NCBI GenBank assembly: GCA_938092005.1
Contig: CALKOU010000012.1
Span: 1-64,000 of the forward strand
DNA: 64,000 bases
From: an uncultured Flavobacteriaceae bacterium
GTDB taxonomy: Bacteria > Bacteroidota > Bacteroidia > Flavobacteriales > Flavobacteriaceae
Direction: 5' to 3'
The notes beneath the pieces are model-generated. The model did no database searches. It saw only the letters and a list, made by a program, of their open reading frames with translations, and was not told the origin of the DNA. Both the position numbers and the translations under genes were made by a program. Positions 25,777 through 61,777 of the stretch are shown one piece after another; the first letter of the stretch is position 1, and each line of letters begins with the position of its first letter.

Positions 25777-27042
25777 TTATTTCAGATTAGGTTCTAGAGC
25801 AATAGGAGGCAATACCGAAATCAATAGGTTTTCTGTACTTCCTTTAAATGTTTTTTCAATAGGTTTTCCATTGCGTGTTAGGCCTTCAAATGTTCCGTTG
25901 TCAGCGGCCTCCCAAAGAGCGTATTTAGCTTTTCCGTCTACTTTAAAAAGTCCAAAATGATTCTCAGAACCTTTGGGATTGTAAGCGTCTTTCCACGGTT
26001 CATCAAAGGCTTCAAAGTAAAAACACGACACACCGTTTTGGTGTGCCCATGCACGCATATGTTTATAATATAATGCTTGTTTGTATTCATCGGCTGCATG
26101 TGAACCTTTTCTGCCATAAAAACCTTTTGACACAGTTGCCCAACCCGTTTCGCCAATGTGAATGGGTTTTTTAATGCCCAAGCTTTCAACATACTTCTTC
26201 ACATTATTAAACTGATTAACTGCATAGTCCAAAGAACGAAGCATGGCTGCATCAATACGCTCTTGAAGGGTCAGTGTGTTTACATGCATTTCATTACCAT
26301 GCCAAAAGCTTGGATTGTAATGGGTATCGTGGAATGGATACGTATGAACCGAAATATAGTCTACGGCAGCGATAAGCTTTTCTAAATCTTCGCTATGGTA
26401 TTCGGCACCACCACCGCCCCAAGAAGCAAAATTATCAGAACTGGTAATCCAAAGTGATTTGGGAAGCGCACCTTCCTTTTTAAGCTCCTGCAAATGTGTT
26501 ACCCACTTCAATATAACACTCGGTTGCACATAGTAATCCGTAGCCCACTTTACCATGGCTTCGTTTCCAACAGCAATGATTTTTACAATATCTGGATAGG
26601 CATTGGCCAACGTTACTGCAGTTTGTATCTCAACTTCGTTGCGTTCGCTTTCGGCATAATGGTTTCTTACCTTATCCGTCCAGGCATTTAAGCAATCAAT
26701 CCAAGCACCAAGCATCACATACATTTCAAAATCGGCGTTTTCTTTTTTGAGAGCAGCTATGGCTTTAAGTATATTCTTTGCTTGCGGCAAATGCACATTG
26801 TACGTACGAATAACTCGAATTCCCATGGCGTGCAGTATTTTCATATCATCTTTTAGCTCAGCCATTGTAGGCTGCACGTCACGAGTCGTTTTTCGATACC
26901 CTCCATAAGAAATCGCTGGGTAATTGGAATTACCAAGTATTTCAGCAGCAGTTGTGTTAACGTTATTCATATTAGCGTTCGGCGTTTTACAAGCACTTAC
27001 AAACATGACTATGAAAAAAGCACAAATTCGAAAAGCTCTCAT
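25777..27042 (-). CDS. GH17 beta-1,3-glucanase lipoprotein
   Basis: Exported GH17 enzyme of 421 residues. The signal peptide ends in lipobox VSAC followed by KTPN, with no acidic export signal, so a periplasmic-facing location is likely. The acid/base Glu is in AVGNEAMVK (about 161) and the nucleophile in HIGETGWATV (about 298). The sequence SYGGYRKTTRDVQPT near residue 45 precedes the barrel. It probably cuts laminarin oligosaccharides after SusCD import. It starts 45 bases after the phosphorylase gene and ends 6 bases before the GH30 start. Confidence 0.9.
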   Translation of the reverse strand: MRAFRICAFFIVMFVSACKTPNANMNNVNTTAAEILGNSNYPAISYGGYRKTTRDVQPTMAELKDDMKILHAMGIRVIRTYNVHLPQAKNILKAIAALKKENADFEMYVMLGAWIDCLNAWTDKVRNHYAESERNEVEIQTAVTLANAYPDIVKIIAVGNEAMVKWATDYYVQPSVILKWVTHLQELKKEGALPKSLWITSSDNFASWGGGGAEYHSEDLEKLIAAVDYISVHTYPFHDTHYNPSFWHGNEMHVNTLTLQERIDAAMLRSLDYAVNQFNNVKKYVESLGIKKPIHIGETGWATVSKGFYGRKGSHAADEYKQALYYKHMRAWAHQNGVSCFYFEAFDEPWKDAYNPKGSENHFGLFKVDGKAKYALWEAADNGTFEGLTRNGKPIEKTFKGSTENLLISVLPPIALEPNLK

Positions 27043-30000: not shown

Positions 30001-30549
30001 TTGGACACCGTCTACCAAATGTACCGAAATCTTGTCATCGTTGAGATTGGTGAAGCACGATTTTCGAACAAAACCAAAAACATCACTAGCGTTCCATTCG
30101 TAGGAAAAGCTAATGTCTAAGTCGTGATTAATTTCTTCAAAAACAACCTTATTCCCCAGGAGGTTTTTATATAAGTTTCGCGAAACCTTATAAACACCTT
30201 TTTGTTTGGCTGAAAATGGCTCCCAAAGATATTTTTTGTGGGCTTTATCTACAATAAAAATAGACTTACTCCCAGTGGTTTCAACAGCTTCGGTTATTTT
30301 ATCATCTGTGTAGTAGGGAAACAGCGCATAGTTGCTGTTTTTCCTTCCAGCAGATAAGCTACCGTTACTCGAAATAAACATCCAGTGGTCGGAGTTGCTT
30401 ACAATGCTCATAAAAAAAGGACGCATCGCATCAACGTTAGCAATTTTATAGAAGGATTCTCCATTACGGATAACCTCTTTCCCATCAACTACTTTTTTAT
30501 GAAGTTGTGCTGGGTGCTGACCTAAAAACATGGGGGTTTCAGATGTCAT
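27088..30549 (-). CDS. Beta-1,3-glucan phosphorylase-like protein (GH149/GH94 type)
   Basis: A 1153-residue cytoplasmic enzyme (no signal peptide) probably releasing glucose-1-phosphate from beta-1,3-gluco-oligosaccharides with phosphate. The order fits the GH94-like phosphorylase clan: N-terminal beta-sandwich (about 30-330), linker helices, then an (alpha/alpha)6 barrel. RPEWNDANNALVGNG (about 652-666) matches the GH94 WND motif that holds the general acid Asp (about 655). Size and the GH17/GH30/GH3 context favour GH149. ATG 30549 is preferred over a GTG at 30579. GH94 or GH161 membership remains possible. Confidence 0.75.
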   Translation of the reverse strand: MTSETPMFLGQHPAQLHKKVVDGKEVIRNGESFYKIANVDAMRPFFMSIVSNSDHWMFISSNGSLSAGRKNSNYALFPYYTDDKITEAVETTGSKSIFIVDKAHKKYLWEPFSAKQKGVYKVSRNLYKNLLGNKVVFEEINHDLDISFSYEWNASDVFGFVRKSCFTNLNDDKISVHLVDGVQNILPQGVEPDLQNASSNLVDAYKKCELEQDSGLGIYSLSAIIVDKAEPSEALKANVVWSLGLDNSKKLISSLQLGDFRRGQSVVQEIDIKAEKGAYFLNDTLTLAGHASENWMLVANVNQSISDIVSLKESIKTDVSLASEVESDIKAGSENLRALVGAADGLQMTNDRLRNIRHFANTMFNIMRGGIFDDNYTIDKVDFTAYITNANRKVYKLKTAIFDSLPEQFDISLLKDIATKDDNQNFKRLCFEYLPLKFSRRHGDPSRPWNKFSINTRAEDGSKILDYEGNWRDIFQNWEALAHSYPEFIEGMIHKFLNATTFDGYNPYRVTKGGFDWETIEPDNPWAYIGYWGDHQIIYLLKFLEFIEDYYPAKLKEYFHQDMFVYANVPYRIKSYQEILKDSKNTIDFDYEKEENIQFKREEIGVDGALLRDRTVFIYKVNFIEKILATVLAKLSNFIPEGGIWMNTQRPEWNDANNALVGNGVSMVTLYYLRRFLRFFETVIEKSDDVEVSISKELHLFFVQINDAFEQHKALLEGNFSDAQRKTLMDALGEAGSLYRTTIYDERFSGDKTPITKGMLLSFLKIAASFLEHSIAANKRKDGMYHAYNLMTLKGDNEVEISYLSEMLEGQVAVLSSGHLTTEESLSVLDSLKSSSLFRKDQYSYMLYPNKDLPRFVDKNTIPKDKVLTSKVLQQLVADANTQILSQDISGAYHFNGNFNNVNSLKDALAALPSQYKSMVAKEQAYIEHVFEDVFDHKSFTGRSGTFFGYEGLGSIYWHMVSKLLLAVCEITKKAIDQQESPERIGRLFDHYFEINAGIGAHKSPELYGAFPTDPYSHTPAGKGAQQPGMTGQVKEDIISRFGELGVRVKNGILGFDPTMLRSEEFLTEPKVFRYQNIAKESCTIDLEKDSLAFTYCQVPIIYKKSTEEAIEVVLQSGETKLFSGHYLDDSTTQQIFQRTNTINKIVVLTLKE

Positions 30550-30612
30550 TTTTGGTTTTGATAAGGTTGTAAAAGTCACGTTAGTTTTTTAAATAATAAT
30601 TTAATCTTTGTT

Positions 30613-31470
30613 TTATTGGTAGATTCTTATATAATCTACTTCCATAGTAGCTTGAGTAAAACTCGAAGGAATTGACCCGCCAAGATTTCCTCCCATAGCT
30701 ATATTAAATAATACGTAATGTGGAAAACGGTAAGGCATGCTGTTATCGATAGCTCGGACAAAAAACACGTTATCGTTAAAGAGGATTCTAATTTCATTTT
30801 TGGTCCATACCAAGGAATAAAGATTGAATGCTGTTGCTGTGTTTTGAACGCGTTTGGTTCCTCCCTGGTGTTTATATGCTTTTGTTTGAGTATCACCCCA
30901 ATGTAAATGACCAATAAGATTGTCTTTGTCCCAGCCATTTTGCTCCATAATATCTATTTCGCCACAAGCAGGCCATCCTACGCTTCCGTATGTGCTGCCA
31001 TGATAGTTACCTGTTTCGTTAATGTTAGCACCTAACGTCCAGAAAGCAGGCCAAGTACCTCGTTCAGCAGGTAGTTTAGCGCTTATATCAATACGGCCGT
31101 ATTGAAATGCATATTTGGAATTTAAGCGGGCAGATGTGTAACTTTTGGTACTACCGCGAAACTGATATTGTTCTTTTTTAGCAACAATCTTAAGCGTTCC
31201 ATCATTTACGTAAGCGTTTTCTTGACGATTGGTGTAATGTTGCTCCTCGCCGTTTGCCCAACTACTTCCCATAATTGGAATAACCTGGTGGTGCCACTTG
31301 TTTCCATCTACAGCTCCATCATAATCAAACTCATCTTGCCAAACCAATGACATACCGTACTTGCTATCCGTTGGTTCTTGTGGATCGACAGGTGCAGCGG
31401 TTGGAGTATCGTCTTTTCCGCAGCCCAATAAACATAAAAACAGAAATAATCGGATTATATTAAAATTCAT
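30613..31470 (-). CDS. GH16 endo-beta-1,3-glucanase (laminarinase) lipoprotein
   Basis: Endo-acting laminarinase of 285 residues. The catalytic motif EIDIME is present (nucleophile Glu about 171, acid/base Glu about 176), preceded by the conserved WPAFWTLG and followed by HLHWGD. The signal peptide ends in lipobox LLGC, and the next residues GKDD match the K-(D/E)2 lipoprotein export signal described in Capnocytophaga, so the enzyme is probably on the cell surface. The gene lies between a terminator-like hairpin and the phosphorylase gene. Confidence 0.94.
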   Translation of the reverse strand: MNFNIIRLFLFLCLLGCGKDDTPTAAPVDPQEPTDSKYGMSLVWQDEFDYDGAVDGNKWHHQVIPIMGSSWANGEEQHYTNRQENAYVNDGTLKIVAKKEQYQFRGSTKSYTSARLNSKYAFQYGRIDISAKLPAERGTWPAFWTLGANINETGNYHGSTYGSVGWPACGEIDIMEQNGWDKDNLIGHLHWGDTQTKAYKHQGGTKRVQNTATAFNLYSLVWTKNEIRILFNDNVFFVRAIDNSMPYRFPHYVLFNIAMGGNLGGSIPSSFTQATMEVDYIRIYQ

Positions 31471-31598: not shown

Positions 31599-33020
31599 TT
31601 ATTGTTTGTAGAAATAAACGTTATCTAAGTATAATGCAGTAACATTACTTCCATCATTTTCATAGATAAGCTGTCCTATTTTAGTTTTCGGCGATAATGA
31701 TAATGCAACATCAATACTGCTCCAAGCATCTCCAGCAAGATCGGCACTCTGAATTGTGAAAACCTGTGTAGTATCATCGTTACCACCGTCAGCACCATTA
31801 GCACCAAAATCTTTAATGGTTACTTTCAATTTTGCACCAGAAGGTAACGTGCCTGGTATAAACACATCAAAATGAAAATGTGTCATTTGTGAAGCGTCAA
31901 CCGTTGGGCTACCAAATTGATGCCCCACAAAATTAAAGTTCTCATAACTAAGAATATTATCTCCATTTACATCAAAATCAGCAGATGTAGTGGTTTGGTA
32001 AGGCTCCCAATATCCATTATAAAAATCAACGGGGACATTCTCATATGCATCACTAAAAATGGAAATAACATCTGCTGCAGCTTGTGCAGGTGAAGCAGGT
32101 AAGTCAAATCTTCCCATAGAATTAATGGTCATTGAACCAACAGCATCAACGCCATTTAGCGATGCTGTTATGGTTGCCGTTCCAGCGCCCACAACTGTAA
32201 TTTCACCTTTTTCGTTTACTTGGGCAACAGCTGGGTCAGATGTTTTAAAATCCAAATACCCAGGCGCAATAGCAGTCGTAACCACTGAACCGTCTCCTAA
32301 AGTAACGGTCTGTGTAATTCCAGTTGTTTTAACAACAGCATCGGTATAGGCCGTCTGAGTGGTATCTTCCCCCCCAAATATAGATGTCAAGGGTTGCGCA
32401 ACAATACCTAATTTCTCGAATCGAATTTCATCTACCCATATTGTGTACCCTAATCCATCCGTATCTGAAGTTCCCGCAGAGAAAGAGAACATTCCTTTTT
32501 CTTGTACTAACTTAGATGCATCCGGAATTGGGATCGTATATTTCCTCCAATAGGTAGTAAGAAGTGTATTGGATAAACCTGCTGCATGCGTATCTCCTTC
32601 AAAGTCAGTTCCAAAACCAAACAATCCTACCGTTGCAGTAGTTGAAGCTTTAGCCCAAAAAGTGAGCGCATCGTAGTTTGTTAGGTTTCGGCCTTTATTG
32701 CGGTCTAAAAAAATACCGCCCATAAAATTACCCTGAGGATCCTTGCTGCTTGGGATGTCTAATCGAATTGATGTTGTGCCCAAGTACGCTTCTTTTATAT
32801 CTGTATTAAACCCATTTACATTCGCACCGTCGGCTGGGTCAAATGAGACAAAGAACTGATCCGTTAAGGATACTGGAGTGTCTGTAAACACTTCTGGAAT
32901 ATCTGGGTATGTTGCTAAGGCAATCTCGTCTGAAAACCCTCTTTCACAACTTACAACGACAACCGAAAGTAGTCCTGCAAGAACGAAAGATAGTTGTGAT
33001 TTAAACATAAAATTTTTCAT
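31599..33020 (-). CDS. Surface glycan-binding lipoprotein with Ig-like domain
   Basis: Probable laminarin-binding protein of the SusE/SGBP kind, 473 residues. The signal peptide ends in lipobox VVSC followed by ERGFSDE. Domain order by eye: a jelly-roll binding module (about 45-205, ending IWVDEIRFEKLG), a bacterial Ig-like domain 2 (about 225-300, with ITVVGAGTATITASLNG), and a second binding module (about 310-473) starting AADVISIFSDAY and ending YLDNVYFYKQ. This last module recurs in the T9SS protein at 54461. No catalytic motif is seen. The gene follows the glycosidase-barrel gene by 14 bases. Confidence 0.75.
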   Translation of the reverse strand: MKNFMFKSQLSFVLAGLLSVVVVSCERGFSDEIALATYPDIPEVFTDTPVSLTDQFFVSFDPADGANVNGFNTDIKEAYLGTTSIRLDIPSSKDPQGNFMGGIFLDRNKGRNLTNYDALTFWAKASTTATVGLFGFGTDFEGDTHAAGLSNTLLTTYWRKYTIPIPDASKLVQEKGMFSFSAGTSDTDGLGYTIWVDEIRFEKLGIVAQPLTSIFGGEDTTQTAYTDAVVKTTGITQTVTLGDGSVVTTAIAPGYLDFKTSDPAVAQVNEKGEITVVGAGTATITASLNGVDAVGSMTINSMGRFDLPASPAQAAADVISIFSDAYENVPVDFYNGYWEPYQTTTSADFDVNGDNILSYENFNFVGHQFGSPTVDASQMTHFHFDVFIPGTLPSGAKLKVTIKDFGANGADGGNDDTTQVFTIQSADLAGDAWSSIDVALSLSPKTKIGQLIYENDGSNVTALYLDNVYFYKQ

Positions 33021-33034
33021 TGTCTTCTTTTTTA

Positions 33035-36000
33035 TTATTTACCAATGTTGATATGAACATATGTTCTAATTTCCCATTCAGATCCATCAGGGTATCCAGC
33101 AAGAACTGCATTTGGTGCTGGAGCAACTCCTGTTGGAGCATATCGTGGCGAATACTGGTCTAACGATCTCCACGTACCGCGTATACCAATTTGTGTATTG
33201 GGTAGTCCAAACCAATCCTGTTTCCCAAGCGAGGTGGATACATCAAGCATTGCCTGAAGCGGGAACGTAAGGTTAAAGTCACGATGGTAATCAAAAGGAC
33301 CCCAGTCGTTAACTTTTACATGCGACACCAGTTTCATTTTTTTATAAATCATTCTAAGATCCCCCCCATAACGTGTAATGGTTCGATCTGAATCTCCGTT
33401 AGCTTGTCCGTTACCGTAGTAGAAATTACCTATTAATCCTAGTTGAGGACTTAGCTTTGATACAATTCGCGTATGTGCTTCCCAAAGATCTTCTGCTGGT
33501 GTAGACGTTCCAAAAGCAAAAAACTGACGATTTGCAAGAAACCCTATGTGTGCGTCTTGCGTGGTTGGAAGGTGTTTGAAAACAAAGCCAGCACTCATGG
33601 CAAACTTGGCATCTTCTACCATATCGTTATTCCACTCATACATCCATGTACCAGGAGTTGGGTCAAAGGTGAATAAAATTTCACCACCTAATGTTTCTCT
33701 GTTTCCACCACGAACAGCAAACGGATCATCGATTACATTACGTAAACGTCCTGGACCTCCAACGCCATTTGGCATAGGATCAACTAGTGGTTTTTGGTAC
33801 ATCACGTTAGGTGCTATTTGCAAGTTCCCCGTCAAGTATGTAAATCCAGAAAGCACATTGGTCATGTTTCCACTTCCAGAGTCTTTGAGTTTCCAGCCTG
33901 TAAAGGTTTGTGTTTGGTCAGCACCACCATTGGCAACCAAGCCCATGTAGGAACCTTGCGCATACCAATTGAATCTTCCTTTTTGGAAGGTAATTTTGGC
34001 CTTTCCACCCCAATTATCCTCGCTATTTACTTTGTCAACAAGTACCGCATCAATGTTGTTGTTCGCCATCACTTGGAAAGAGCTACCGTTTAATGGACTA
34101 CCGCCCCAAATACCACCTAGCGTAACACCAAAGTTTCCGAGTTTACGCTCAAAAGCTATCGTGGCACGTTCTGTTGGCCACGCTGGAATAACACCACTGG
34201 TAAGCTGATTCGTATCTAGCACACGTCTACCACTGCTATCAAACTCTAAGTTGGTAACAATATCTCTGTGATAAACTCCAGTAACGGTCCATTTAAGCAA
34301 TTCTTTTTGATACTTCAAAAGAACAGCTGGGTTAGCACCCCACCAAAGCTGTGGACCAAATGCTGCTTTTAATCCATTTAAGGCGCCTTTGGCGTCCATT
34401 TCAACTCCAGATATCTCACCATTATAAATGTCTAAATTGGGGCCGTAATAGGCTTCTGGATAGAGGTTAAAAATATCACCTTCATACGCCCAATGATAGT
34501 GTCCAGTACGGTAGAATCCACGAAGATTAAAGTCTTTTGCATTCCACTCAAACTCTGCATTGTATACCTGAACCCGGTTAACATCGTTTAGAGTAGTTAC
34601 TCCATCAGGAGTTGTAAACCGTTGCGCTCTACCTCTGTTTTCATAAAAGATTTCGTCGATAGGATTATTGGCAATATTACCTAAAACGTTCACGTTTACT
34701 TCAGCACGCATACCAGGCGCAGGGTTTGCCTCAACTCCAACATAGTAAGATTCCATATTATCAAAACCTTGTTGATCTGGATATGCAACCTGATTAGGAG
34801 CTGGTGTATTCGGCGTTGTAATGGAACTACCTCCAGTATTAAAGGAAGTGAATTCTGCTCTAAGGTTACTTAGACGAATTTTTTCGCCTCCACCCAATGC
34901 TGCTTTATCCGCTCGAGCACGCAATACAGCGTCCATCATTTGGATGTTGTCAAAGTGATTGTCTACAAATGAAGCATCAATGCCATTAGCATAAGGATTT
35001 AATGTGTGTGCTTGCTTTAGGGCATAATACGCCGCTCTAGGGTATAGGTCGTACAACCCACGAGCATCTGTAGGGCCTTTGGCACAAATACCAAACCACT
35101 CTTCGTTCATGTTGTTTTGACCTAGTTTATAGTCAAACGGATATCCACCATTAGCCCAAGAGGCGTTGTTATCGTGAACATCTAAATTATCCGTCTGGCC
35201 ATATTTCCACCAACCGTCACTAAACTGGAAGGTACAGCCACCAATAGCATTCCCTGTTTTACCAAGTCCTGCTGCATTGGCATAAATTTCTTTCCATTGC
35301 CCTACCATAATTGTAGCTTGAGCTTTTTGATCTTCCTTGTTGGAGATTGCATTAAATGCATCCGATCCAAACTCAGTAAACAATACAGGTTTTCCGTATT
35401 CGTTTTTAACACGCTCAAACGTGTCTCCAAATGAAATGCCGCGGTACATATTAGTTCCGTAAACATCTACATCTGGACATTCTTCAGCAATAATTTCTAA
35501 GAATAATAAGTCTCCATTACAAATGGCTACAGGGTGTGATCCATCAATATCCTTAATGGCTTTGGCTGCGTCATTCATCAGTTTATACATCGGACGTCCA
35601 CGATTTTCACCAACGGCTTTTCGTTGGTCTTCTTCGTCTGGGAAATCCTCTGTTTCAGCACCTGCCCAAAACAAACCGTAATTGTTTTCGTTACCTAGCA
35701 AAAACAGCAATAGTCCAGGTGTATCTTTATATTCCTTGGCTAGATCTGTAACTTCAGCCATTAGCATTTCTTGAACATCTTCACTTCGGTAATCAGTAAC
35801 TGGAACCCAAGCACCATCAATGGTTAGTCCGTAACGACCAAATGAATGGTTTAAGATGGTATAAATGCCGTAGTTTTTATGGATATACTCAATCCATCTG
35901 GGTTGAATGCCCGTATACGTCCTAATGGTATTTACCCCCATGTTTTTGAGCAGTCCCATTTCAGCATCAAGTGCTGCAATGATAAAGTCATCTGACTGGC

Positions 36001-36190
36001 TCCAAAGGCTGAAATTATAATTCGTGCCTATTGGGAAATAATCCCAGTTCATACCGTTGATGATAAAGGCTTCTCCATCTACCGTCAGCTTGGGCTGGTT
36101 GTTATTGTTTTCTACCTGAACCTTGCCAGCTTGTGAAAAGCCCGACAAAGCAATAAGGAAGAAAAGCATGTTAAAAAAACTGTTTTTCAT
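33035..36190 (-). CDS. Glycosidase (clan GH-A) fused to a putative outer-membrane beta-barrel
   Basis: A 1051-residue exported protein with a Sec signal peptide ending at about SQA (residue 21) and no lipobox. The N-terminal part (about 25-400) is a GH2-C-like TIM barrel: acid/base Glu in LGNENN (about 167) and nucleophile Glu in LFTEFGSDA (about 273). The part from about 440 to the end is rich in alternating aromatic/polar strands (KITFQKGRFNWYAQGSYM; FNLTFPLQAMLD; WEIRTYVHINIGK) like a porin-type outer-membrane barrel. The glycosidase would then sit on, or in, its own pore. The family is not assigned; a transglycosylase role is possible. Confidence 0.65.
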   Translation of the reverse strand: MKNSFFNMLFFLIALSGFSQAGKVQVENNNNQPKLTVDGEAFIINGMNWDYFPIGTNYNFSLWSQSDDFIIAALDAEMGLLKNMGVNTIRTYTGIQPRWIEYIHKNYGIYTILNHSFGRYGLTIDGAWVPVTDYRSEDVQEMLMAEVTDLAKEYKDTPGLLLFLLGNENNYGLFWAGAETEDFPDEEDQRKAVGENRGRPMYKLMNDAAKAIKDIDGSHPVAICNGDLLFLEIIAEECPDVDVYGTNMYRGISFGDTFERVKNEYGKPVLFTEFGSDAFNAISNKEDQKAQATIMVGQWKEIYANAAGLGKTGNAIGGCTFQFSDGWWKYGQTDNLDVHDNNASWANGGYPFDYKLGQNNMNEEWFGICAKGPTDARGLYDLYPRAAYYALKQAHTLNPYANGIDASFVDNHFDNIQMMDAVLRARADKAALGGGEKIRLSNLRAEFTSFNTGGSSITTPNTPAPNQVAYPDQQGFDNMESYYVGVEANPAPGMRAEVNVNVLGNIANNPIDEIFYENRGRAQRFTTPDGVTTLNDVNRVQVYNAEFEWNAKDFNLRGFYRTGHYHWAYEGDIFNLYPEAYYGPNLDIYNGEISGVEMDAKGALNGLKAAFGPQLWWGANPAVLLKYQKELLKWTVTGVYHRDIVTNLEFDSSGRRVLDTNQLTSGVIPAWPTERATIAFERKLGNFGVTLGGIWGGSPLNGSSFQVMANNNIDAVLVDKVNSEDNWGGKAKITFQKGRFNWYAQGSYMGLVANGGADQTQTFTGWKLKDSGSGNMTNVLSGFTYLTGNLQIAPNVMYQKPLVDPMPNGVGGPGRLRNVIDDPFAVRGGNRETLGGEILFTFDPTPGTWMYEWNNDMVEDAKFAMSAGFVFKHLPTTQDAHIGFLANRQFFAFGTSTPAEDLWEAHTRIVSKLSPQLGLIGNFYYGNGQANGDSDRTITRYGGDLRMIYKKMKLVSHVKVNDWGPFDYHRDFNLTFPLQAMLDVSTSLGKQDWFGLPNTQIGIRGTWRSLDQYSPRYAPTGVAPAPNAVLAGYPDGSEWEIRTYVHINIGK

Positions 36191-36287: not shown

Positions 36288-37724
36288 TTACTCTTCGTAA
36301 ACCAAATCGTCCAAATAGGCAGTAACCTTATCTGTATTGTTTTCACTATTCAACTGAATGACCACCTTATTTAAATCTGTTCTATCAACCGGGTCATCTG
36401 AGCTACTATCAGCATTTACAAACGTATCGTTGGCAAAATCAAACGTGATTTCTTGCCACTGATCCAAAACCACAGGCTTTATGATTTCCGTTTGAGTTGT
36501 CCAAAACTGAGCTATATCACCATTTTGAAGTTTAAACGAAATCTGGTTAGGCTGTGAACCTGTAATACTGCTTGACTCAAAATATACCTTAATTTTAAAG
36601 GTAGCATTTTCGCTTAAGTCAAAGTTTGGTGATACGTTAAATCCTACATTAGCATATTGACCTCCATCGTCTACATATTTTAATACATGAACAGAAGTAT
36701 TAATTCCTCCAGAGTAAGGGTTTGCAAAAGCTACATCAATGGTTGTGCCATCACCTTTCAATGAAGCAATACCATCACATCCTTCGAAATCATCATTGGC
36801 ATAAGCACCAGCAATCGTTGGTTTCGTACCATATGAAAATTCATCCATATAGGCAGTAACCTTGTCGTTGTTGTTTTCACTATTCATTTGAATTACCACT
36901 TTGTTTAAATCTGTTCTATCAACCGGGTCGTCTGAGCTACTGTCAGCATTTACAAACGTATCGTTGGCAAAATCAAACGTGATTTCTTGCCACTGATCCA
37001 AAACCACAGGCTTTATGATTTCTGTTTGAGTCGTCCAAAACTGAGCTATATCACCATTTTGAAGTTTGAGTGAAATCTGATTAGGCTGTGTCCCCGTAAT
37101 ACTACTTGAGGGAACATACACTTTGATTTTAAAGACCGCATCTTCGCTCAAGTCAAAGTTTGGCGATACGTTAAATCCGACATTGGAATATTGACCTCCG
37201 TCGTCTACATATTTTAATACTCCGCATGAATCGTTATCTGTATTAGAAAAAGGATTAGGAAAAGAAGCCTCAATGGTTGTGCCGTCTGCTTTCCAATCAA
37301 CGTTTCCGTTACCTTCAAAACCGTCATAAAGACCACTGGCTTCAGGTTCTGGAACTGATGTGTCAACATAAACAATAGTATGCTCTTTGGTAATAGAAAC
37401 ATCTTCTTTACCGTCAAAAGCAGCGGTAACCGTTATGGTATAAGTAGCCGTTTCTTTTGGATAAGAATAGGTTACCATTGGGCCGCTAGTTTGAAAAATA
37501 TCGTCTGTTGACGCAGGGTCACCAAAGTCAACCGTATATACGATGCGGCCGTCACCTGGAACAGTGGTAGGCACCACGCCAGTTTTGTTACCATCTGCAT
37601 TAAGTGTTGCAACGGTAAAGTCAAGACCCGCAATAATGCTAAAGTCGTCTTCTTCAGTACAAGCAAAAGGAATGCTTAGTAAAAGTAGTGATAGGATGTA
37701 AATCCCTTTATTTAATCGTTTCAT
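36288..37724 (-). CDS. PKD-domain surface lipoprotein with duplicated binding module
   Basis: Probable surface laminarin-binding protein (SusE/F position), 478 residues. ATG 37724 gives a clean lipoprotein signal with lipobox PFAC; the following TEEDD is strongly acidic and fits a surface-export signal. Next come a PKD-like domain (about 30-120, with VTYSYPKETATYTITVTA) and two tandem binding modules (about 125-300 and 305-478), each containing GQYxNVGFNVSPNFDLSE. The modules are close copies at DNA level, 534 bases apart. A start at 37772 would overlap susD and place 16 extra residues before the signal. Confidence 0.78.
   Translation of the reverse strand: MKRLNKGIYILSLLLLSIPFACTEEDDFSIIAGLDFTVATLNADGNKTGVVPTTVPGDGRIVYTVDFGDPASTDDIFQTSGPMVTYSYPKETATYTITVTAAFDGKEDVSITKEHTIVYVDTSVPEPEASGLYDGFEGNGNVDWKADGTTIEASFPNPFSNTDNDSCGVLKYVDDGGQYSNVGFNVSPNFDLSEDAVFKIKVYVPSSSITGTQPNQISLKLQNGDIAQFWTTQTEIIKPVVLDQWQEITFDFANDTFVNADSSSDDPVDRTDLNKVVIQMNSENNNDKVTAYMDEFSYGTKPTIAGAYANDDFEGCDGIASLKGDGTTIDVAFANPYSGGINTSVHVLKYVDDGGQYANVGFNVSPNFDLSENATFKIKVYFESSSITGSQPNQISFKLQNGDIAQFWTTQTEIIKPVVLDQWQEITFDFANDTFVNADSSSDDPVDRTDLNKVVIQLNSENNTDKVTAYLDDLVYEE
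36308..36760 (-). repeat. Binding-module repeat, copy 2 (C-terminal)
   Basis: Direct repeat of 36842-37294 at an exact 534-base offset. About 80 consecutive bases (roughly 36409-36487) are identical to the other copy, and the flanks carry scattered, mostly silent changes. Confidence 0.85.
36842..37294 (-). repeat. Binding-module repeat, copy 1 (N-terminal)
   Basis: Partner of 36308-36760. The two copies stay in the same reading frame (534 = 178 codons) and diverge towards their ends, as expected for an in-frame tandem duplication of one domain. Confidence 0.85.
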
Positions 37725-37747
37725 TTTATTCTGTTTTAAGTAGTTTA

Positions 37748-39262
37748 TTAATATCCTGGATTTTGTCCCCAACGTTCTTCAGCTAATGCTAGTTTTAACT
37801 CAATAAGCGGGATGGGAAATATTTCATTTTTGTTTTCGGTGAAGCCATCAATGGCGCCGACTGCTTTTTTGGTGCGCACTAAGTCAAAGAAACGGTGACC
37901 TTCGCCAGCCAATTCTTTACGTCTTTCCGTATAGATGGCATCTAATAACGCTCCTTCGGAAGCTGTGTAATCTTTGCTGTTATCGCCATAGGCTCTGGCG
38001 CGCACTTGGTTTAAGTAGTCTTCTGCATTAGCCCCACCACTTTGTGCTTCAGCTTCAGCTGCCATAAGCAGTACATCAGCATAGCGGATAGCATGGTAGT
38101 TGTTGTCGTAGTTGAGCGGGTCTGACCCTGCTCTTACGGGTAACTTTCTAGGCATAAACTTTCTGTTTGCTAGTCCTGTGTGACCTCTACTTTGACCATA
38201 GTCGTCTTCGTCTTTATTTCTTAAATCAAAGAAAGTAACATCGCGTCTGCTATCAGAAGCATCAAACAAATCGTAAAGCTCAACAGAAGGTAAGCAAAAA
38301 CCCCAGCCATTTTCAAATGTGGCATCGGATAAGTCGCGTGGACCATTGAACTTTACAAAGTAAGTTCCTTGACTGCAAGATATACATTCCCAAGTTGCGG
38401 CTTCAACGCTAGTGTACTGAATTTCAAAAACTCCCTCTGATCCATTTTCCCCTTCATATTCAAACAAATCTTCATAATCAGCACCCGTTTTTAAGCTGTA
38501 TTTGTTGCTTAAAATCACATCGCCTAAAGTTGTAGCTGCATCGCCAAATTTGGTAGCGTCAAATGTGCCATGATATAACAGCACCTTCCCCAACAATGCT
38601 TGCGCAGCCCCTTTGGTAGCCTCATAAGGCGACTCTTGATTTACCGGAAGGTTAGGAATAGCTTCCTTTAAATCTTCAGCAATAAGCCCATAGGCCGTTG
38701 GGATATCAGCCACACGGTTTATAGAAAACTCTTCTTCAAATAGCACACGCTCATCTACAATTCGGAGTACACCGTCACGTGTTTCTGTTTTAAGCGGAAC
38801 ATTTCCAAAAAACTTAACCAGTTCAAACGTATAATAGGCACGTAAAAAATATGCTTCAGCAAGAACTTCTTCTTTACCTGCAAAGTCGAGTAAGTCCTTG
38901 TTTTCCAACAAATAGTTGGTGCGACTAATCCCTGCATACATCAAGCCCCATATATCCCGAATCTGATTTTGGTCTCTTTCAGAGTGTATCATCAGATTGA
39001 CGTTTTGTAGTGTGGGTTGATCGTATGTGTCTGGATCTCCACCAGCAGCATAGTCGTCAGAAGCGACTACGCTAACTAGCGTGTTCCAGTATGTTGATTG
39101 AAGTATATCGTAAGCACCAATAAGTGCTTCTTTGTAGTCTTTTTCTGTTTTAAAGAATTCGCTTGTAACAGGACCTGAAGGCTCAACTTCAACAAAGCTG
39201 TCACAGCTAACTACAAACGAAATTAGCGATATACACAAGAAAATATTTGATAATTTTTTCAT
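37748..39262 (-). CDS. SusD/RagB family glycan-binding outer-membrane lipoprotein
   Basis: Lid and binding partner of the SusC pore directly upstream (5 bases between them). The 504-residue protein has lipobox VVSC followed by DSFVEVEPSGPVTSEFF, the usual SusD start. The helical TPR region (about 45-210) includes SRTNYLLENKDLLDFAGKE, and the C-terminal conserved segment YADVLLMAAEAEAQSGG followed by YLNQVRARAYG is typical. In this locus the cargo is expected to be laminarin oligosaccharides. Confidence 0.93.
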   Translation of the reverse strand: MKKLSNIFLCISLISFVVSCDSFVEVEPSGPVTSEFFKTEKDYKEALIGAYDILQSTYWNTLVSVVASDDYAAGGDPDTYDQPTLQNVNLMIHSERDQNQIRDIWGLMYAGISRTNYLLENKDLLDFAGKEEVLAEAYFLRAYYTFELVKFFGNVPLKTETRDGVLRIVDERVLFEEEFSINRVADIPTAYGLIAEDLKEAIPNLPVNQESPYEATKGAAQALLGKVLLYHGTFDATKFGDAATTLGDVILSNKYSLKTGADYEDLFEYEGENGSEGVFEIQYTSVEAATWECISCSQGTYFVKFNGPRDLSDATFENGWGFCLPSVELYDLFDASDSRRDVTFFDLRNKDEDDYGQSRGHTGLANRKFMPRKLPVRAGSDPLNYDNNYHAIRYADVLLMAAEAEAQSGGANAEDYLNQVRARAYGDNSKDYTASEGALLDAIYTERRKELAGEGHRFFDLVRTKKAVGAIDGFTENKNEIFPIPLIELKLALAEERWGQNPGY

Positions 39263-39267
39263 GATAA

Positions 39268-42200
39268 TTAAAAGTTTAGATTAATTCCTAATAAATAAGT
39301 AGAGGCTATGGGATAAAACCCTTTGTCGATACCCCCGCCAAGTGCTGCGCCAGTGTTAGCAGAAGGGTCGTATCCGTTATAGTCGGTAATGGTAAATAGA
39401 TTGTTCCCAGAAAGGTAAATTCTAAGATTGTCAATACCTGAGTTGGTACCTACCAATTCAGTAAAGTTATAGCCAATTTGTACATTTTGTAACCGCACAA
39501 AAGAAGCGTCTTCTACATGAAAATCGTTGAAAAAGTCCGTATTAGTATTTGCTCCCAAAGTAGCTCTAGGAACAGAATTACTCGTTCCAGAACCCTGCCA
39601 TCTTCTAAGCATATAGGTGCCGCGGTTGGCATATAAATCTGCACGCTCATAATCACGAACCAACTCATGTCCTAAAGACGCAAACGCATAGGCGTTGAAA
39701 TCAAAGTTTTTATAAGCAAACCCAATGTTAAATCCCATTTCTAAATCAGGGATTGGATCTCCAATATTAGTACGGTCTTCAGAAGTAATCTGACCATCGC
39801 CGTTGGTGTCCACAAACCGTAGGTCACCTGGTGTAATATCTACAATAGTGCTATACTTCTCTTTGTCTCCATTTTTATCCGTACCATGGGTTGCAAATGC
39901 CGCAGCGTCTAACGCATCTATTTCGGCTTGCGTTTGATAGATTCCATCTGTCTTGTAACCATAATAATGTCCAAGTGAGAAGCCAGGAGCCATTCGTGTA
40001 ATGCCTGTTTGGCTAATTCCTACACCATATTCACCATCTTCTGGAGTTGTTCTCCCGTTTAGTGAAAGCACCTCGTTATCAATGGTTGTGATGTTAAAAT
40101 TAAAGTTAAGATTAAAGTCATCTGTGAGGTTGTCGTTATATCCTAGTGAAAACTCCAGCCCTTGGTTTTGGACTGTTCCTGCGTTTACAAAAGGGCTCAA
40201 ATTTCCAAAGCTTGGCGCGCCACTACCGGTTACGCCGGATATTTGTGGTTCTAACAATAAATCTTTTGTTTTCTTTCGATAAACATCTGCGCTAAAATTA
40301 AGTTTGCTATCAAACAGGCTTAAATCAAGTCCAATGTTTGCGGTTTCTTGCTCTTCCCATTTTAGGAATGGATTATCGAGTTTACCAGGTGCTTTACCAA
40401 AAATTAGGTCGGTAACTTTATCAATGTTTCCAGGGTCAACAGTAGCTAACCCATTTAATCTTCTTAGATACGCGAATGAAGAAATGCGGTCATTACCGAT
40501 TACACCATAGCTAGCACGTAGTTTAAGGTTAGAAATCCAATCGGCGTTTTGTAAAAAATCTTCTTCAGACACATTCCAGCCAATGGAACCTGATGGGAAA
40601 TACCCAACATTTCGATTGTCTTCTGACGAAAACTGAGAAGAAACATCTCTACGTAAAACTCCTGAGAATAGATACTTCCCTTTGTAGCTGTATTGTACTC
40701 GTGTGAATGTCGAAACCAATCGGGTGTCAAACCAATCATCTCCTCGCTCAAGGGCAGCGGCATCAAAACGTGGGGTTATAGTCATACCTGCATCCCATAC
40801 CGTTTGACCCAATTGATCAGTACCTGTAGTTGTTCTACCTGTATTACCAAAGAATAGACCCTTGTTTTGATAAATAGATCCTCCTAAAAGTACCGTTAGA
40901 TCATGATCCTCATTAAAATTGTTCTTGTAGGTAATATAACTATCCAAAGTCCAATCATCATAGTTAGCTCCGTTATCGATTACCTCATTTGTGATTTCTG
41001 CATTACTAAGGTCATCAACAGAATTAACTGTATTGTTAGACTTACCTGTACCATAATACTGCTCTGGTTTAAACGTGTCTTCTAAAACCGTAGCATGGTT
41101 GATGTTAAACTGCGTTTTAGCGGTAAAGTTTTCCCAAAAATCGTACTCCAATGCTAAAAGACCCGACCATTTTGATGTACGCGCAGTACTGTATGAATTT
41201 TCAATTTGTGCCAACGGATTGATAATCTCAATTTGTGAAACATCATTTGCCAATGCAAAAGCGCCATTTTCATCATATACGGGCATAGTAGGGTTGATGT
41301 TTACCGCGTTATACAGCACTGCACCAATACCGCCTTCGGCGAGGTTCTGCTTGGTCGCAGAAAAGTGAAGTGCATTGGCTGTGACTTTTAGATTATCTAA
41401 AATATCGTATTCATAATTTATTCGAGCCGTTACTCGTTCGTAGTTGTTACTACTTCCGCCCACAATACCATCTTGGTTTAAATAACCTGCAGCAAAAGTG
41501 TAAGCAGACTTTTGGCCACCACCTTTAACGGTAGCATTAACTTCAGACATTAAAGCTTGCTCAAACACTTCATCTTGCCAATCGGTTCCGGTTTGTGGAT
41601 ATACAAAAAACTCCGTTTTACCTTTTGCGTCGTTAACATATTGAGCAAAATCAAAAGCATTCATTAAATCAAGTTTTTTACTAGTAAATTGAACACCTGT
41701 ATAACTATCAACACTTACATCCAACGCTGAGTTTTTTCTACCAGACTTGGTGGTAATAAGAACAACCCCATTTGCAGCCTGAACACCATAAATACCCGCT
41801 GTGGCATCTTTAAGCACATTGATGCTTTCAATATCATTTGGGTTTAGGGCATTAAGATCACCGATACGATTGCCGTCTACCAAAATTAGAGGCGCGTTGT
41901 TTCCGTTTGTTGTTATACCGCGAATGCGAATGTTAAGTCCGCTACCAGGAGAACCCGATTGTGACGTAATATTTACTCCAGGAACTTGTCCTTGTAAGGC
42001 TTGTTCAGCACGAACCGGATTAAGTTTCTGAATGGTTTTGGCGTCTATTACGCTAACTGCTCCCGTTACTTCCTTTTTTCGCTGCGAGCCATAGCCAATA
42101 ACGACGATTTCATCTAAAGCATCAGCCGAAGTCGTTAAAGCAATAGATAAATTAAAATTATTGCCAACAGCAACCTCTTGGGTTTCAAACCCAATGTAGG

Positions 42201-42414
42201 AAACAACAAGTGTTGCGTTGCTATTAACATCTGACAGTTGAAACTTACCGTCAAAGTCGGTAGTAGTTCCATTAGTAGTGCCCTTTATCAAAACGGTTGC
42301 GCCAGGAAGTGGCGCGCCCGATTCGGCTTCTGTAACTGTTCCACTTACTTGCTGTGCAAGGGCAACAGTAGAAACCATAAAGGCTACTAAAGTTTTAAAA
42401 ATTGGTTTTTTCAT
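39268..42414 (-). CDS. SusC/RagA family TonB-dependent outer-membrane transporter
   Basis: Outer-membrane pore that imports oligosaccharides using TonB energy. ATG 42414 gives a signal peptide (MKKPIFKTLVAFMVSTVALA) and 1048 residues; the longer frame from 42492 covers the promoter. Domains: carboxypeptidase-regulatory-like beta sandwich (about 22-105, VSGTVTEAESGAPLPGATV), plug (about 115-235, with ALDEIVVIGYGSQRK and LNIRIRGI), and a barrel ending LLGINLNF with the usual terminal Phe. Upstream lie an exact -7 box and a candidate activator site shared with two distant genes. Confidence 0.95.
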   Translation of the reverse strand: MKKPIFKTLVAFMVSTVALAQQVSGTVTEAESGAPLPGATVLIKGTTNGTTTDFDGKFQLSDVNSNATLVVSYIGFETQEVAVGNNFNLSIALTTSADALDEIVVIGYGSQRKKEVTGAVSVIDAKTIQKLNPVRAEQALQGQVPGVNITSQSGSPGSGLNIRIRGITTNGNNAPLILVDGNRIGDLNALNPNDIESINVLKDATAGIYGVQAANGVVLITTKSGRKNSALDVSVDSYTGVQFTSKKLDLMNAFDFAQYVNDAKGKTEFFVYPQTGTDWQDEVFEQALMSEVNATVKGGGQKSAYTFAAGYLNQDGIVGGSSNNYERVTARINYEYDILDNLKVTANALHFSATKQNLAEGGIGAVLYNAVNINPTMPVYDENGAFALANDVSQIEIINPLAQIENSYSTARTSKWSGLLALEYDFWENFTAKTQFNINHATVLEDTFKPEQYYGTGKSNNTVNSVDDLSNAEITNEVIDNGANYDDWTLDSYITYKNNFNEDHDLTVLLGGSIYQNKGLFFGNTGRTTTGTDQLGQTVWDAGMTITPRFDAAALERGDDWFDTRLVSTFTRVQYSYKGKYLFSGVLRRDVSSQFSSEDNRNVGYFPSGSIGWNVSEEDFLQNADWISNLKLRASYGVIGNDRISSFAYLRRLNGLATVDPGNIDKVTDLIFGKAPGKLDNPFLKWEEQETANIGLDLSLFDSKLNFSADVYRKKTKDLLLEPQISGVTGSGAPSFGNLSPFVNAGTVQNQGLEFSLGYNDNLTDDFNLNFNFNITTIDNEVLSLNGRTTPEDGEYGVGISQTGITRMAPGFSLGHYYGYKTDGIYQTQAEIDALDAAAFATHGTDKNGDKEKYSTIVDITPGDLRFVDTNGDGQITSEDRTNIGDPIPDLEMGFNIGFAYKNFDFNAYAFASLGHELVRDYERADLYANRGTYMLRRWQGSGTSNSVPRATLGANTNTDFFNDFHVEDASFVRLQNVQIGYNFTELVGTNSGIDNLRIYLSGNNLFTITDYNGYDPSANTGAALGGGIDKGFYPIASTYLLGINLNF

Positions 42415-42432: not shown

Positions 42433-42440
42433 CAAATGTA
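42433..42440 (-). promoter_or_regulatory. -7 box of the susC promoter
   Basis: On the minus strand TACATTTG is an exact TAnnTTTG match, 18 bases before the susC ATG. A possible -33 TTG lies at 42463-42465. Confidence 0.6.
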
Positions 42441-42476
42441 TCACTATTGCATTGCTACATTGCAAAAAAGCATCTA

Positions 42477-42491
42477 TACAATATGTATACA
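42477..42491 (-). promoter_or_regulatory. Candidate activator site, susC promoter (site 1)
   Basis: On the minus strand TGTATACATATTGTA contains the perfect inverted repeat TATACA-3-TGTATA (42475-42489). It ends 36 bases before the -7 box and is followed by a T6 tract. Near-identical sites lie at 54388 and 56374. Confidence 0.5.
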
Positions 42492-42522: not shown

Positions 42523-45333
42523 TTACAATGAAAGAATATACTCTGTAAGGTTCTGATTATGCTCGAGATCCATTTTTTTACGCAATCGATATCGCTTAAT
42601 ATCTACACTCTTCACCGAAATACTAAGGAGAGGAGCTATTTCCTTAGAGGATAAATTTAGCCTTAGGTATGCGCACAGCTTTAAATCGTGATTGGTTAAC
42701 GCCTCGTGTTTTTGTTTTAGTCGTTTTAAAAAATCTTTATCTGCGTTGTCAAATGCTTGTTCAAAAAACTCCCAATCGTCATCGTTTTTAAGCGACCGTT
42801 TGATGGTTCTTAACACGCGGGAAACGGTAGGGTCATTTGCTGCAGGTTCCAAATCGATTAACAATGAATTCATGAACTGGTTTTTCTTAATAAAAGCCAT
42901 TGTTGATATCGCAAGCTCTTTGTTTTTTTGTTCAATATTGTCTTCCAGTTGTTCGTTTTTGATGCGCATGATTTCCTCATTTTGTCTGAGCTGCATCAAA
43001 TCTATTTTACGTTGATTTTCGTTAATCAACTTTTCTTGCTCGCGTCTGTAGTAGTACGTATATCGGATGTTTATCAGACGAAACAATCCAAACATAAAAA
43101 TGGAATACACCAATAACGCAATATTTGAAAAGTAATACGGTCTTTTAATTGAAAAAGGGACTCCAAGTATTACATCACTTACATCATCATTTACCATTGC
43201 CCGTACCGATAAGGTATACGTTCCGAATTTTAAGTTACTAAACGATGTCGTTGCGCTTTCTGTCCATGCAGACCAGGTTTCGCTATAGCCATCAAGCCTG
43301 TATTGAAAGCGAGGTGTGTCGTAAATTGCATTGTTTGTCAAGTAAAACGACGCTGTAAAGCTGTTGAAATCTGCCTCGAGACTTACTTCTTCATGTAAGC
43401 TTATTGATTGTTCTCGCCCCGCCTTATTGCGAGCAGTAAAGGCCGCAAGTGCTATTTTTGGCGAAGAAGATTTTATTTTTGATGTATCAAACCTAAAAAA
43501 GCTATTGGAAGTTCCCAATAAGTACTTGTCTTCAACAATATGGCTGATGTTTTCAAAGCCAGTGTTGGTTTTTCTAGCATCGTAAGCTAATGGGTATTTA
43601 GACACCACAAAATCATCACTAAGAGCACCTTTGGCTAAGCGCACCAAATTATTTCGCTCAAATAACCAAAGATATTTTTCTCTGTCCAAAACCATCTTCC
43701 CCGTTGTGAAATTATCATCGTTAAAAAGTTGTGCTATTTTGTCATTTTTTACAAATTGATTTTGTTGCGCATCATACCCAAAAAAACCGTTTTTAGAAAA
43801 ATAATACACGTCTCCTTGAAAAGATGTCATGCTGCTGTATAAACTAATAGGAGCATTGGGTACTTGTGTTGTTGTCAACACCCTTGTTTTTTCTGAATTT
43901 AGCACCAGCCTAAAAACACCTTTGTATTCATGGCTAACAAGAAATTCTTGCGGGTTAATGCGTTCAAAATAGCGAGAAGAAATAGTAAAGTTTTCGATAT
44001 GATGTTGGTACAACCATGCGCCATTTTGTTTTTTAAAAAGGTGTAATCCGTCATAGGCACCAGCTATAAATTCGGTATCATTCATTGTTTTAAAAAGCCA
44101 TATCCCTGACGCTCCATATAATTTACGTGCTTTATTTTGATTCACTAAAAAAGCACCACTATCATGCCCACACATCAACGCATTGTTTATGATTTGTAAT
44201 GACCACACTTGCCCTTCCATGCCCACAATAGGCCTGAGAAGTTCATCAGAATTATACTTTTTATAATAAAGCCCTTGATTTGTTCCAACATAAAGGAAAT
44301 CATTAAAAATTTGAGTTGCATATACAGTACCGATAAAATTCAGGTTGTTATTGAACTTTTGAATGGGTGTATCCGTTGCTACATAGGCAAGACCATCATC
44401 TAGACCCAACCAAACCCCATTTGCGTCAGCGAAAACAGTCAATACCGTATTGTTGTGCAACCCTTCATCGGCGTTGATGTGTTGCAAAAGAATACCATCA
44501 GAGGAAAGAACATAAACACCATTTTTAACAGAACCTAAAATAAGTTGGCCGTTTTCAGATTTGGTAAAACTGTATATAACGTCACGAGATAAATCGCGAC
44601 TTAACTTTGAGTTGTAGACTGTTATTATTCCATTATTGTGCAACAACAAACCATTATCGCGCGTAACAAATAATTCTCCTTTTAAGGTGGAAGTCATGCC
44701 AACAACTGGGTTCTGCATTAATTGATTTGCAGTTAGGTATACTTTGCTGTTTTCATTTACAATTTTATAAAGCGTTAACTTATTGTCTTGAAAAAAAACA
44801 CCATCGTCATTTACAAAAGCCTTAACAACACCATTTTTTGGAGTTATGGTATTCAAACTGTTATTAATTTGATTGTAGATAACAAGTCGATCCAAGGATT
44901 GAAACAAAATGAATTCTTTATGACTAAGAATGCTCCAAAATTGCTCATCCTCAATCATATCAAAATCAAAACGATTTGCAAGCGATGTATAGACAAGCTT
45001 ACCGTTTTCCTGACGTAACCAATAGCCAAAATCCATGTAAGCACCTGTGTATACGATATTTTTATTTACCCCTACTGCTCGCATAATCGTATTGTTAGGA
45101 GTTGCGTATAAGTTCCAGCGCAAGCCATCAAACTCTAGCAAGCCAAAGTTATTGGCTACATATAATCTTCCACTAGAATCGCGATCTATTTTCCAGTTCT
45201 GATTTCCTGCTTGGTAAATCTCAGGTGTGTAGTTTTGTATAGAAGGGTGATATTGCGCTATTGAATAAGAAACACTTATTATGCTTAAAATCAGTATTTT
45301 ATATATAGTATTTTTCAATTTGTATGGTTGCAT
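42523..45333 (-). CDS. SusR-like membrane-spanning LuxR-type regulator
   Basis: Sensor-regulator that probably switches on the PUL in response to laminarin oligosaccharides. The 936-residue chain has a signal peptide (to about SIA, residue 26), a periplasmic two-component-propeller sensor (about 30-640), a Y_Y_Y domain (about 650-725, YRLDGYSETWSAW), one transmembrane helix (about 735-755), a coiled coil (about 765-820) and a C-terminal LuxR HTH (about 875-936, LNLSSKEIAPLLSISVKSVD). There is no histidine kinase or receiver, so sensing and DNA binding are in one protein. TTG 45318 is an alternative start. Confidence 0.85.
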   Translation of the reverse strand: MQPYKLKNTIYKILILSIISVSYSIAQYHPSIQNYTPEIYQAGNQNWKIDRDSSGRLYVANNFGLLEFDGLRWNLYATPNNTIMRAVGVNKNIVYTGAYMDFGYWLRQENGKLVYTSLANRFDFDMIEDEQFWSILSHKEFILFQSLDRLVIYNQINNSLNTITPKNGVVKAFVNDDGVFFQDNKLTLYKIVNENSKVYLTANQLMQNPVVGMTSTLKGELFVTRDNGLLLHNNGIITVYNSKLSRDLSRDVIYSFTKSENGQLILGSVKNGVYVLSSDGILLQHINADEGLHNNTVLTVFADANGVWLGLDDGLAYVATDTPIQKFNNNLNFIGTVYATQIFNDFLYVGTNQGLYYKKYNSDELLRPIVGMEGQVWSLQIINNALMCGHDSGAFLVNQNKARKLYGASGIWLFKTMNDTEFIAGAYDGLHLFKKQNGAWLYQHHIENFTISSRYFERINPQEFLVSHEYKGVFRLVLNSEKTRVLTTTQVPNAPISLYSSMTSFQGDVYYFSKNGFFGYDAQQNQFVKNDKIAQLFNDDNFTTGKMVLDREKYLWLFERNNLVRLAKGALSDDFVVSKYPLAYDARKTNTGFENISHIVEDKYLLGTSNSFFRFDTSKIKSSSPKIALAAFTARNKAGREQSISLHEEVSLEADFNSFTASFYLTNNAIYDTPRFQYRLDGYSETWSAWTESATTSFSNLKFGTYTLSVRAMVNDDVSDVILGVPFSIKRPYYFSNIALLVYSIFMFGLFRLINIRYTYYYRREQEKLINENQRKIDLMQLRQNEEIMRIKNEQLEDNIEQKNKELAISTMAFIKKNQFMNSLLIDLEPAANDPTVSRVLRTIKRSLKNDDDWEFFEQAFDNADKDFLKRLKQKHEALTNHDLKLCAYLRLNLSSKEIAPLLSISVKSVDIKRYRLRKKMDLEHNQNLTEYILSL

Positions 45334-45338
45334 GTAGA

Positions 45339-45352
45339 TACAAAACTATACA
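45339..45352 (-). promoter_or_regulatory. Possible autoregulatory site at the regulator promoter
   Basis: On the minus strand TGTATAGTTTTGTA resembles site 3 (TGTATAGGTTTTGTA) with one base missing. It overlaps the regulator's own -7 box, so binding there would be expected to repress. The AT-rich context makes a chance match possible. Confidence 0.3.
45341..45348 (-). promoter_or_regulatory. -7 box of the regulator gene
   Basis: On the minus strand TAGTTTTG is an exact TAnnTTTG match ending 7 bases before the ATG at 45333. The message is leaderless if that ATG is used, or has a short leader if TTG 45318 is used. Confidence 0.5.
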
Positions 45353-54387: not shown

Positions 54388-54402
54388 TGTATATATATTG
54401 TA
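54388..54402 (+). promoter_or_regulatory. Candidate activator site, T9SS gene 1 (site 2)
   Basis: TGTATATATATTGTA differs from site 1 (susC) at one of 15 bases, has the same orientation relative to transcription, ends 35 bases before the -7 box at 54438, and is also followed by a T6 tract. Confidence 0.5.
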
Positions 54403-54437
54403 GAGGTATTTTTTAAGGTTTCAATAGCTTAGAGGTA

Positions 54438-54445
54438 TATATTTG
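54438..54445 (+). promoter_or_regulatory. -7 box of the gene at 54461
   Basis: TATATTTG is an exact TAnnTTTG match, 15 bases before ATG 54461. Confidence 0.6.
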
Positions 54446-56373: not shown

Positions 56374-56388
56374 TGTATAGGTTTTGTA
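56374..56388 (+). promoter_or_regulatory. Candidate activator site, T9SS gene 2 (site 3)
   Basis: TGTATAGGTTTTGTA keeps both half-sites (TGTATA and TTGTA) of sites 1 and 2, with three central differences. It is followed by TAGGATGTTTT, like TAGATGCTTTT at site 1. It ends 35 bases before a -7-like TATATTGG at 56424-56431. Confidence 0.45.
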
Positions 56389-56454
56389 TAGGATGTTTTA
56401 AGAATATCGCAATATTATGTTGCTATATTGGTCCAAATCTTAAATCTATATATC

Positions 56455-61771: not shown

Positions 61772-61777
61772 TGCTTT

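Follow-up and report, generated by a model that had tools for sequence, protein, structure and literature searches.

The 64,000-nucleotide stretch analyzed here (the window; positions 1 to 64,000 of contig CALKOU010000012.1, our contig C12) belongs to a metagenome-assembled genome (MAG) of an uncultured marine Flavobacteriaceae bacterium (1.62 Mb, 83.6% complete). It carries a polysaccharide utilization locus (PUL) for the algal sugar laminarin, whose first gene is susC, encoding a TonB-dependent receptor (39268-42414, minus strand; the open reading frame (ORF) runs from an upstream TTG and the ATG was placed by reading), and two distant genes for proteins exported by the type IX secretion system (T9SS). 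A short element, a candidate operator for the sensor-regulator encoded beside susC, precedes all three. Operator 1 (18-mer TGTATACATATTGTATAG, 42474-42491, minus strand) lies 77 bases 5' of the susC ATG, operator 2 (TGTATATATATTGTAGAG, 54388-54405, plus strand) 73 bases 5' of the ATG of the gene at 54461, and operator 3 (TGTATAGGTTTTGTATAG, 56374-56391, plus strand) 81 bases 5' of the ATG of the gene at 56455. The first-pass annotation, made from the sequence alone, had described these sites as 15-mers, TGTATA-N5-TGTA. They are indeed present, at 42477-42491 on the minus strand (TGTATACATATTGTA) and at 54388-54402 (TGTATATATATTGTA) and 56374-56388 (TGTATAGGTTTTGTA) on the plus strand, as the sole exact matches of the window. 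Sites 1 and 2 are identical at 14 of 15 bases, site 3 differs by three central changes, and a T-rich tract follows each, all as annotated. Counting on the sequences reproduced the distances of 36, 35 and 35 bases between the 15-mers and the -7 boxes, which are TACATTTG for susC (42433-42440, minus strand), TATATTTG for the gene at 54461 (54438-54445, plus strand) and TATATTGG for the gene at 56455 (56424-56431, plus strand). The first two boxes fit the proposed TAnnTTTG, and the third is off by one base. The element as observed at the three promoters is real.

The second half of the site continues three bases beyond the 15-mer originally described, as TGTATAG or TGTAGAG, and the site is therefore a direct repeat with an 11-base period, TGTATR-N5-TGTAKRG, both halves being TGTATA-like and in the same orientation. 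Chance was gauged with shuffles of the window, the expectation under a dinucleotide Markov model (built from 107 kb of the genome), reversed patterns, shuffled promoters and neighbouring promoters. When one mismatch is allowed, TGTATA-N5-TGTA has 9 matches in the window against 5.07 expected, and 7 of 100 shuffles reach 9; because these matches are near chance, the bare 15-mer is weakly specific. In the whole genome it has 10 exact matches (4.31 expected; 7 with the reversed control), four in promoters and six within long ORFs, and it was rejected as a genome scanner on account of those six. With the 18-mer TGTATRNNNNNTGTAKRG, the four promoter matches alone remain, against 0.34 expected. This extension was picked after viewing these four sites, so that the clean test lies in other genomes. 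The fourth match (G000:C3:87597-87611 as the 15-mer) is on another contig, 74 bases 5' of the gene for a protein of 1374 aa with a domain of glycoside hydrolase (GH) family 81, a CBM6 module and a T9SS tail (PF18962, 58.3 bits). GH81 is a family of endo-beta-1,3-glucanases. Many equally good sites at unrelated promoters did not occur: all four 18-mer matches precede genes of beta-glucan type, and none was found at two other susC/susD-type pairs that contig C12 carries outside the window (L011:7252-17193).

The PUL has the gene set expected for laminarin (beta-1,3-glucan). All on the minus strand, susC is followed by susD (37748-39262), a putative surface glycan-binding protein (36288-37772; PKD match below cut-off), a TIM-barrel-like glycosidase (33035-36190; Glyco_hydro_2_C below cut-off), a second putative surface glycan-binding protein (31599-33020), GH16 of the laminarinase family (30613-31470), a beta-1,3-oligosaccharide phosphorylase (27088-30579; matching 6hq6 over nearly its whole length), GH17 (25777-27042), GH30 (24292-25770), a sugar transporter of the major facilitator superfamily (22864-24282), a second GH17 (21952-22863) and GH3 (19921-21927). 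In relatives, the operator is also often found in front of homologues of the glycosidase at 33035. Both distant genes (54461-56137 and 56455-57891, plus strand) encode secreted T9SS proteins, as annotated, with the sorting domain TIGR04183 scoring 53.5 and 53.0 bits against a cut-off of 23. Residues ~323-477 of the former form a predicted beta-sandwich of carbohydrate-binding-module (CBM) type, which also occurs at the C-terminus of the PUL protein at 31599-33020; a different domain is common to the two T9SS proteins (41% identity over 158 aa). For the 54461 protein, only parts of the model are good (mean predicted local distance difference test score, pLDDT, 62), and the top Foldseek rows mix CBMs with other beta-sandwich proteins. 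SulP-type sulfate permease genes occur three times in the regions read, at 58137-59729 and 61769-63499 of the window, near the T9SS genes, and at L013:3066-4922, adjoining the GH81 gene.

In the genus set (17 genomes, the window's genome and 16 others), the 18-mer has 32 matches, against 6 with the reversed pattern. Twelve precede susC genes (one genome contributes a tandem pair; outside the window and locus L088, these genes were identified by reading N-terminal sequences) and one another TonB-receptor gene, two precede 33035-type glycosidase genes, 12 precede genes for secreted CBM/T9SS-type proteins (some truncated where the locus ends), and GH16, GH81 and a promoter remnant without a gene account for one each, the remaining two lying inside ORFs. 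Thus, 29/32 matches have beta-glucan-type genes downstream, and 25/28 when the window's genome is left out; a lack of conservation in relatives, which would have spoken against the element, did not occur. Moreover, homologues of the two T9SS proteins in the genus carry the site or a variant 72-91 bases 5' of the ATG in 16 of 16 cases (not counting homologues truncated by a contig end or preceded by fewer than 100 bases), 10 of these sites being already among the 32 matches and three being weak (scores 11-12). In one genome the susC promoter and its operator are duplicated in tandem, 97 bases apart (L080/L091; G001:C34:5593-5707). In another (L077; G002:C22:8373-8390), a T9SS-gene-like operator and promoter are followed 290 bases on by an ORF of another kind, which makes them a promoter remnant.

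The spacing to the promoter is also conserved. Among 54 family promoters, 48 have TAnnTTT 35 or 36 bases after the end of the 15-mer; the genus count is 18 of 27 promoters, with 8 lacking any TAnnTTT in the stretch scanned. The annotated activator position upstream of -33 is backed by this fixed spacing: the site is just upstream of the -33 region and therefore where a promoter-contacting activator needs to sit.

Beyond the genus, a regulator-alignment scan of the genome collection kept 80 loci, 75 of which have a same-strand gene starting no more than 450 bases after the regulator stop (six of them belong to the window's genus or are closely related, and some of these are also loci of the genus set). 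Where the genus 18-mer does not fit, TGTTGAG or a similar sequence stands as the second half. A relaxed form made after seeing these loci, TGTATR-N5-TGTWNNG, matches the coding strand in 59 of the 75 and in 54 of 69 without the genus-like loci; it averages 0.03 matches in shuffled controls (at most 2) and occurs at 3/421 of the remaining promoters of these loci. Ten of the 16 misses carry a version with one or two mismatches and the right -7 spacing. The family form TGTATRNTTTTTGTWKNG, from which the form used by the genus differs, was searched in 60 relatives and has 15 matches (reversed control 6), nine in promoters and six inside ORFs. The nine are all in four genomes that hold an orthologue of the regulator, and in 8/9 the gene downstream is susC, a 33035-type glycosidase gene or one for a secreted binding protein. 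With a looser 18-mer, 12 named relatives yielded 52 matches (21 with the reversed pattern), and 16 of the 30 loci inspected were inside ORFs.

The candidate cognate regulator (42523-45333, minus strand; 936 aa) combines a propeller sensor like those of hybrid two-component systems (HTCS), a Y_Y_Y domain and a C-terminal LuxR-like helix-turn-helix (HTH). The Y_Y_Y domain scores above cut-off, profile matches were obtained to 3v9f, 4a2l, 3va6 and 3ott, and the structure model (mean pLDDT 79) aligns with 4a2l. No histidine kinase, receiver or AraC-type DNA-binding domain was found among its Pfam matches with E up to 10. Residues 748-934 match the NCBIfam family BT3442_fam at 1.6e-5 and 23.8 bits, against a cut-off of 940. 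The annotation had called the regulator LuxR-type, which is approximate because the HTH matches Pfam GerE just below the curated cut-off; for the same reason, such regulators may have been overlooked. In a scan for autoregulation of 102 regulator upstream regions, loose TGTA-N6..8-TGTA patterns on both strands gave any match in 10. Directly 5' of the regulator ATG in the window lies a version of the repeat with a 10-base period, TGTATAGTTTTGTATC (45337-45352, minus strand), and the full repeat is missing in the sister genomes inspected. In some relatives (L162, L167, L173, L194, L197 and L225), an operator-like copy lies before the regulator gene or other nearby genes.

Outside the genus, the promoter site is commonly paired. 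Fifty of the 75 regulator loci have a second, inverted copy upstream of it (intergenic regions of L104-L183), located 23-26 bases after the regulator stop in 48 of the 50. Start-to-start distances in these loci cluster at 99-102, 114, 122-125, 131-136, 143-146 and 169-173 bases. For the 24 loci outside Flavobacterium with distances up to 150 bases, genera being assigned by hand, the best period is 10.75 with p < 1 in 4000, a result that holds against a smoothed null as well; such p-values overstate independence, because related lineages share spacings. Four spacings at 169-173 are out of phase with the shorter ones. A pattern-only scan for pairs, which made no use of the regulator and allowed spacings of 116-146 in 397 family genomes (237 genera), found 64 pairs in 58 genomes (46 genera) and 0 with reversed controls. 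Their spacings are 120-126 (45 pairs), 131-136 (17) and 145-146 (2), with none at 127-130 or 137-144. Twenty pairs were fetched, and the downstream gene is susC-like in 9 (by reading), a 33035-type glycosidase in 10 (61-69% identity) and of CBM/T9SS type in 1. Eight of these 20 have no regulator end upstream by a loose test; we had considered that the inverted copy is tied to the regulator stop codon, and rejected this because the copy is also found at such promoters. A wide-pattern search found the inverted copy at 8/9 family promoters and at 1/27 genus promoters (where the match is weak and lies at 33 bases).

Taken together, the sensor-activator encoded at 42523-45333 very likely uses this element as its operator to govern a dispersed beta-1,3-glucan regulon. 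Its propeller sensor, which the analogy with HTCS proteins would put in the periplasm, would detect a beta-1,3-gluco-oligosaccharide. Two LuxR-like HTH domains would then bind head to tail on the two TGTATA-type half-sites, one helical turn (11 bases) apart and just upstream of the -33 region, and recruit RNA polymerase at the TAnnTTTG promoter. The proposed regulon would comprise the PUL operon from susC, the two T9SS-exported putative glycan-binding proteins encoded 12-14 kb away and the T9SS-exported GH81 enzyme on another contig, scattered genes that are probably switched on together by one sensor protein. The regulon itself is well supported; the identity of the binding protein and of the inducer, a positive and not a negative mode of control, and co-expression are what we infer from sequence patterns.

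DNA looping would be the natural reading of the paired operators. There is perhaps an even chance that, in most regulator-carrying Flavobacteriaceae, an inverted operator pair about 100-170 bases apart on the same helix face allows the membrane-anchored sensor to loop the DNA at promoters of a dispersed beta-glucan regulon, and that the small-genome genus of the window lost the upstream operator and kept the regulon.

Several observations weigh against assigning the element to this regulator and its regulon. The 15-mer without its extension is unspecific, as its six matches within ORFs attest, and the HTH match to GerE, at 22.1 bits for the C-terminal piece and 18.4 for the whole protein, stays below the Pfam cut-off of 23.5. 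Among the 75 regulator loci, the 15-mer fits 10 and the genus 18-mer, fixed beforehand, just 17, so that wider conservation rests on the post hoc relaxed form; six loci lack a site even at two mismatches with the right spacing. The TGTATRNTTTTTGTWKNG form has a promoter match in just 4 of 29 relatives with an orthologue (E <=1e-100) and is absent from the whole genus. Outside the genus a good site precedes just 3/8 homologues of the T9SS proteins, and the sites beside susC could be partly due to descent. One genus member, G016 (apparently the same as locus L105), has the regulator with a degenerate susC site. Finally, three incomplete MAGs of the genus (G002, G011 and G014) have site-bearing promoters, with no regulator found. 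The annotated choice of the 42523 regulator as the cognate protein is favoured by its adjacency and by the absence of promoter matches in genomes without it, and weakened by these three MAGs and by the approximate family label.

The same three MAGs, together with the occurrence of the site at T9SS and GH81 genes that are not beside the regulator, would fit a global carbohydrate activator (Crp-like, for example) that uses this site at many PULs. We regard this as improbable: the genome's four matches are all at beta-glucan-type genes despite the two additional susC/susD pairs on the contig, few neighbouring promoters carry the relaxed form, and all four family-form matches in genomes without an orthologue are inside ORFs. 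A part of the core promoter, such as a -35-like or UP element or the box of an alternative sigma factor, is still less probable. It would explain the fixed -7 box spacing and the T-rich flanks, but the element stops 35-36 bases short of the -7 box, in front of position -33, is a direct repeat of two halves confined to one functional gene class, and outside the genus has an inverted copy in helical phase, mostly 99-173 bases upstream. A chance likeness of AT-rich promoters, coupled with shared descent of the two T9SS genes, has very little in its favour: these genes do have a domain in common and one-mismatch matches are near chance, but susC and GH81, of other families, carry the site at the same position, beta-glucan-type genes follow 25 of the 28 genus matches elsewhere, and 64 composite sites stand against none in controls.

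As the operator of the 42523 regulator, the element would be a concrete, genome-scannable marker of the regulon in MAGs that measure 1.1-1.7 Mb and are 64-89% complete. It predicts GH81, GH16 and CBM/T9SS proteins as new regulon members, and it makes existing bloom metatranscriptomes usable as a test of co-expression.

The comparison with known systems draws on the accessible parts of the papers cited. SusR-like regulators of Bacteroides have predicted direct-repeat motifs, 67 or 77 bases centre to centre, and tandem sites of HTCS are 21 bases apart on average (Ravcheev 2013, PMC3878776). The present system resembles the former in having a membrane-anchored regulator of a glycan PUL, predicted direct-repeat motifs and helical-turn spacing. 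It differs in that theirs are two tandem sites 67 or 77 bases apart, whereas here the promoter site is internally a direct repeat of 11-base period, and the additional site seen outside the genus has the inverted orientation, at distances mostly of 99-173 bases. Tandem boxes at 67 or 77 bases were not found with a wide pattern in the 260 bases upstream of the promoter site, and a same-orientation upstream copy occurs at 1/27 genus promoters (the tandem duplication at 97 bases) and 0/9 family promoters. The sensor is of HTCS type with a Y_Y_Y domain; unlike an HTCS, the regulator has no match to a histidine kinase, receiver or AraC domain, and its half-site period is 11 rather than 21 bases. 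Flavobacterial laminarin PULs with similar enzyme content likewise have a LuxR-annotated regulator as their first gene, described without an operator in the accessible text (PMC13188888). In Maribacter, laminarin genes are dispersed in the genome yet act together (PMC11345257); the terms regulon and promoter are absent from that main text as far as accessible, and the shared cis element proposed here, in other genera, could link such dispersed genes. Polysaccharide-responsive regulons were seen in the Zobellia transcriptome, the term binding site not occurring in the available text (PMC5613140). The annotation's remark that a laminarin regulon with this operator is not known to be described agrees with the open-licence literature, where no operator was found for this regulator or for Flavobacteriia laminarin genes. 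PULs of small-genome Bacteroidota, in clades other than the window's genus, were suggested to be largely unregulated (PMC10108472, in the part available). If the small-genome genus of the window did keep the regulon after losing the upstream operator, it would speak against this idea of streamlined bloom Bacteroidota with largely unregulated PULs. PUL regulation of the SusR-like or HTCS sort is already known, and the operator proposed here would add a variation to it.
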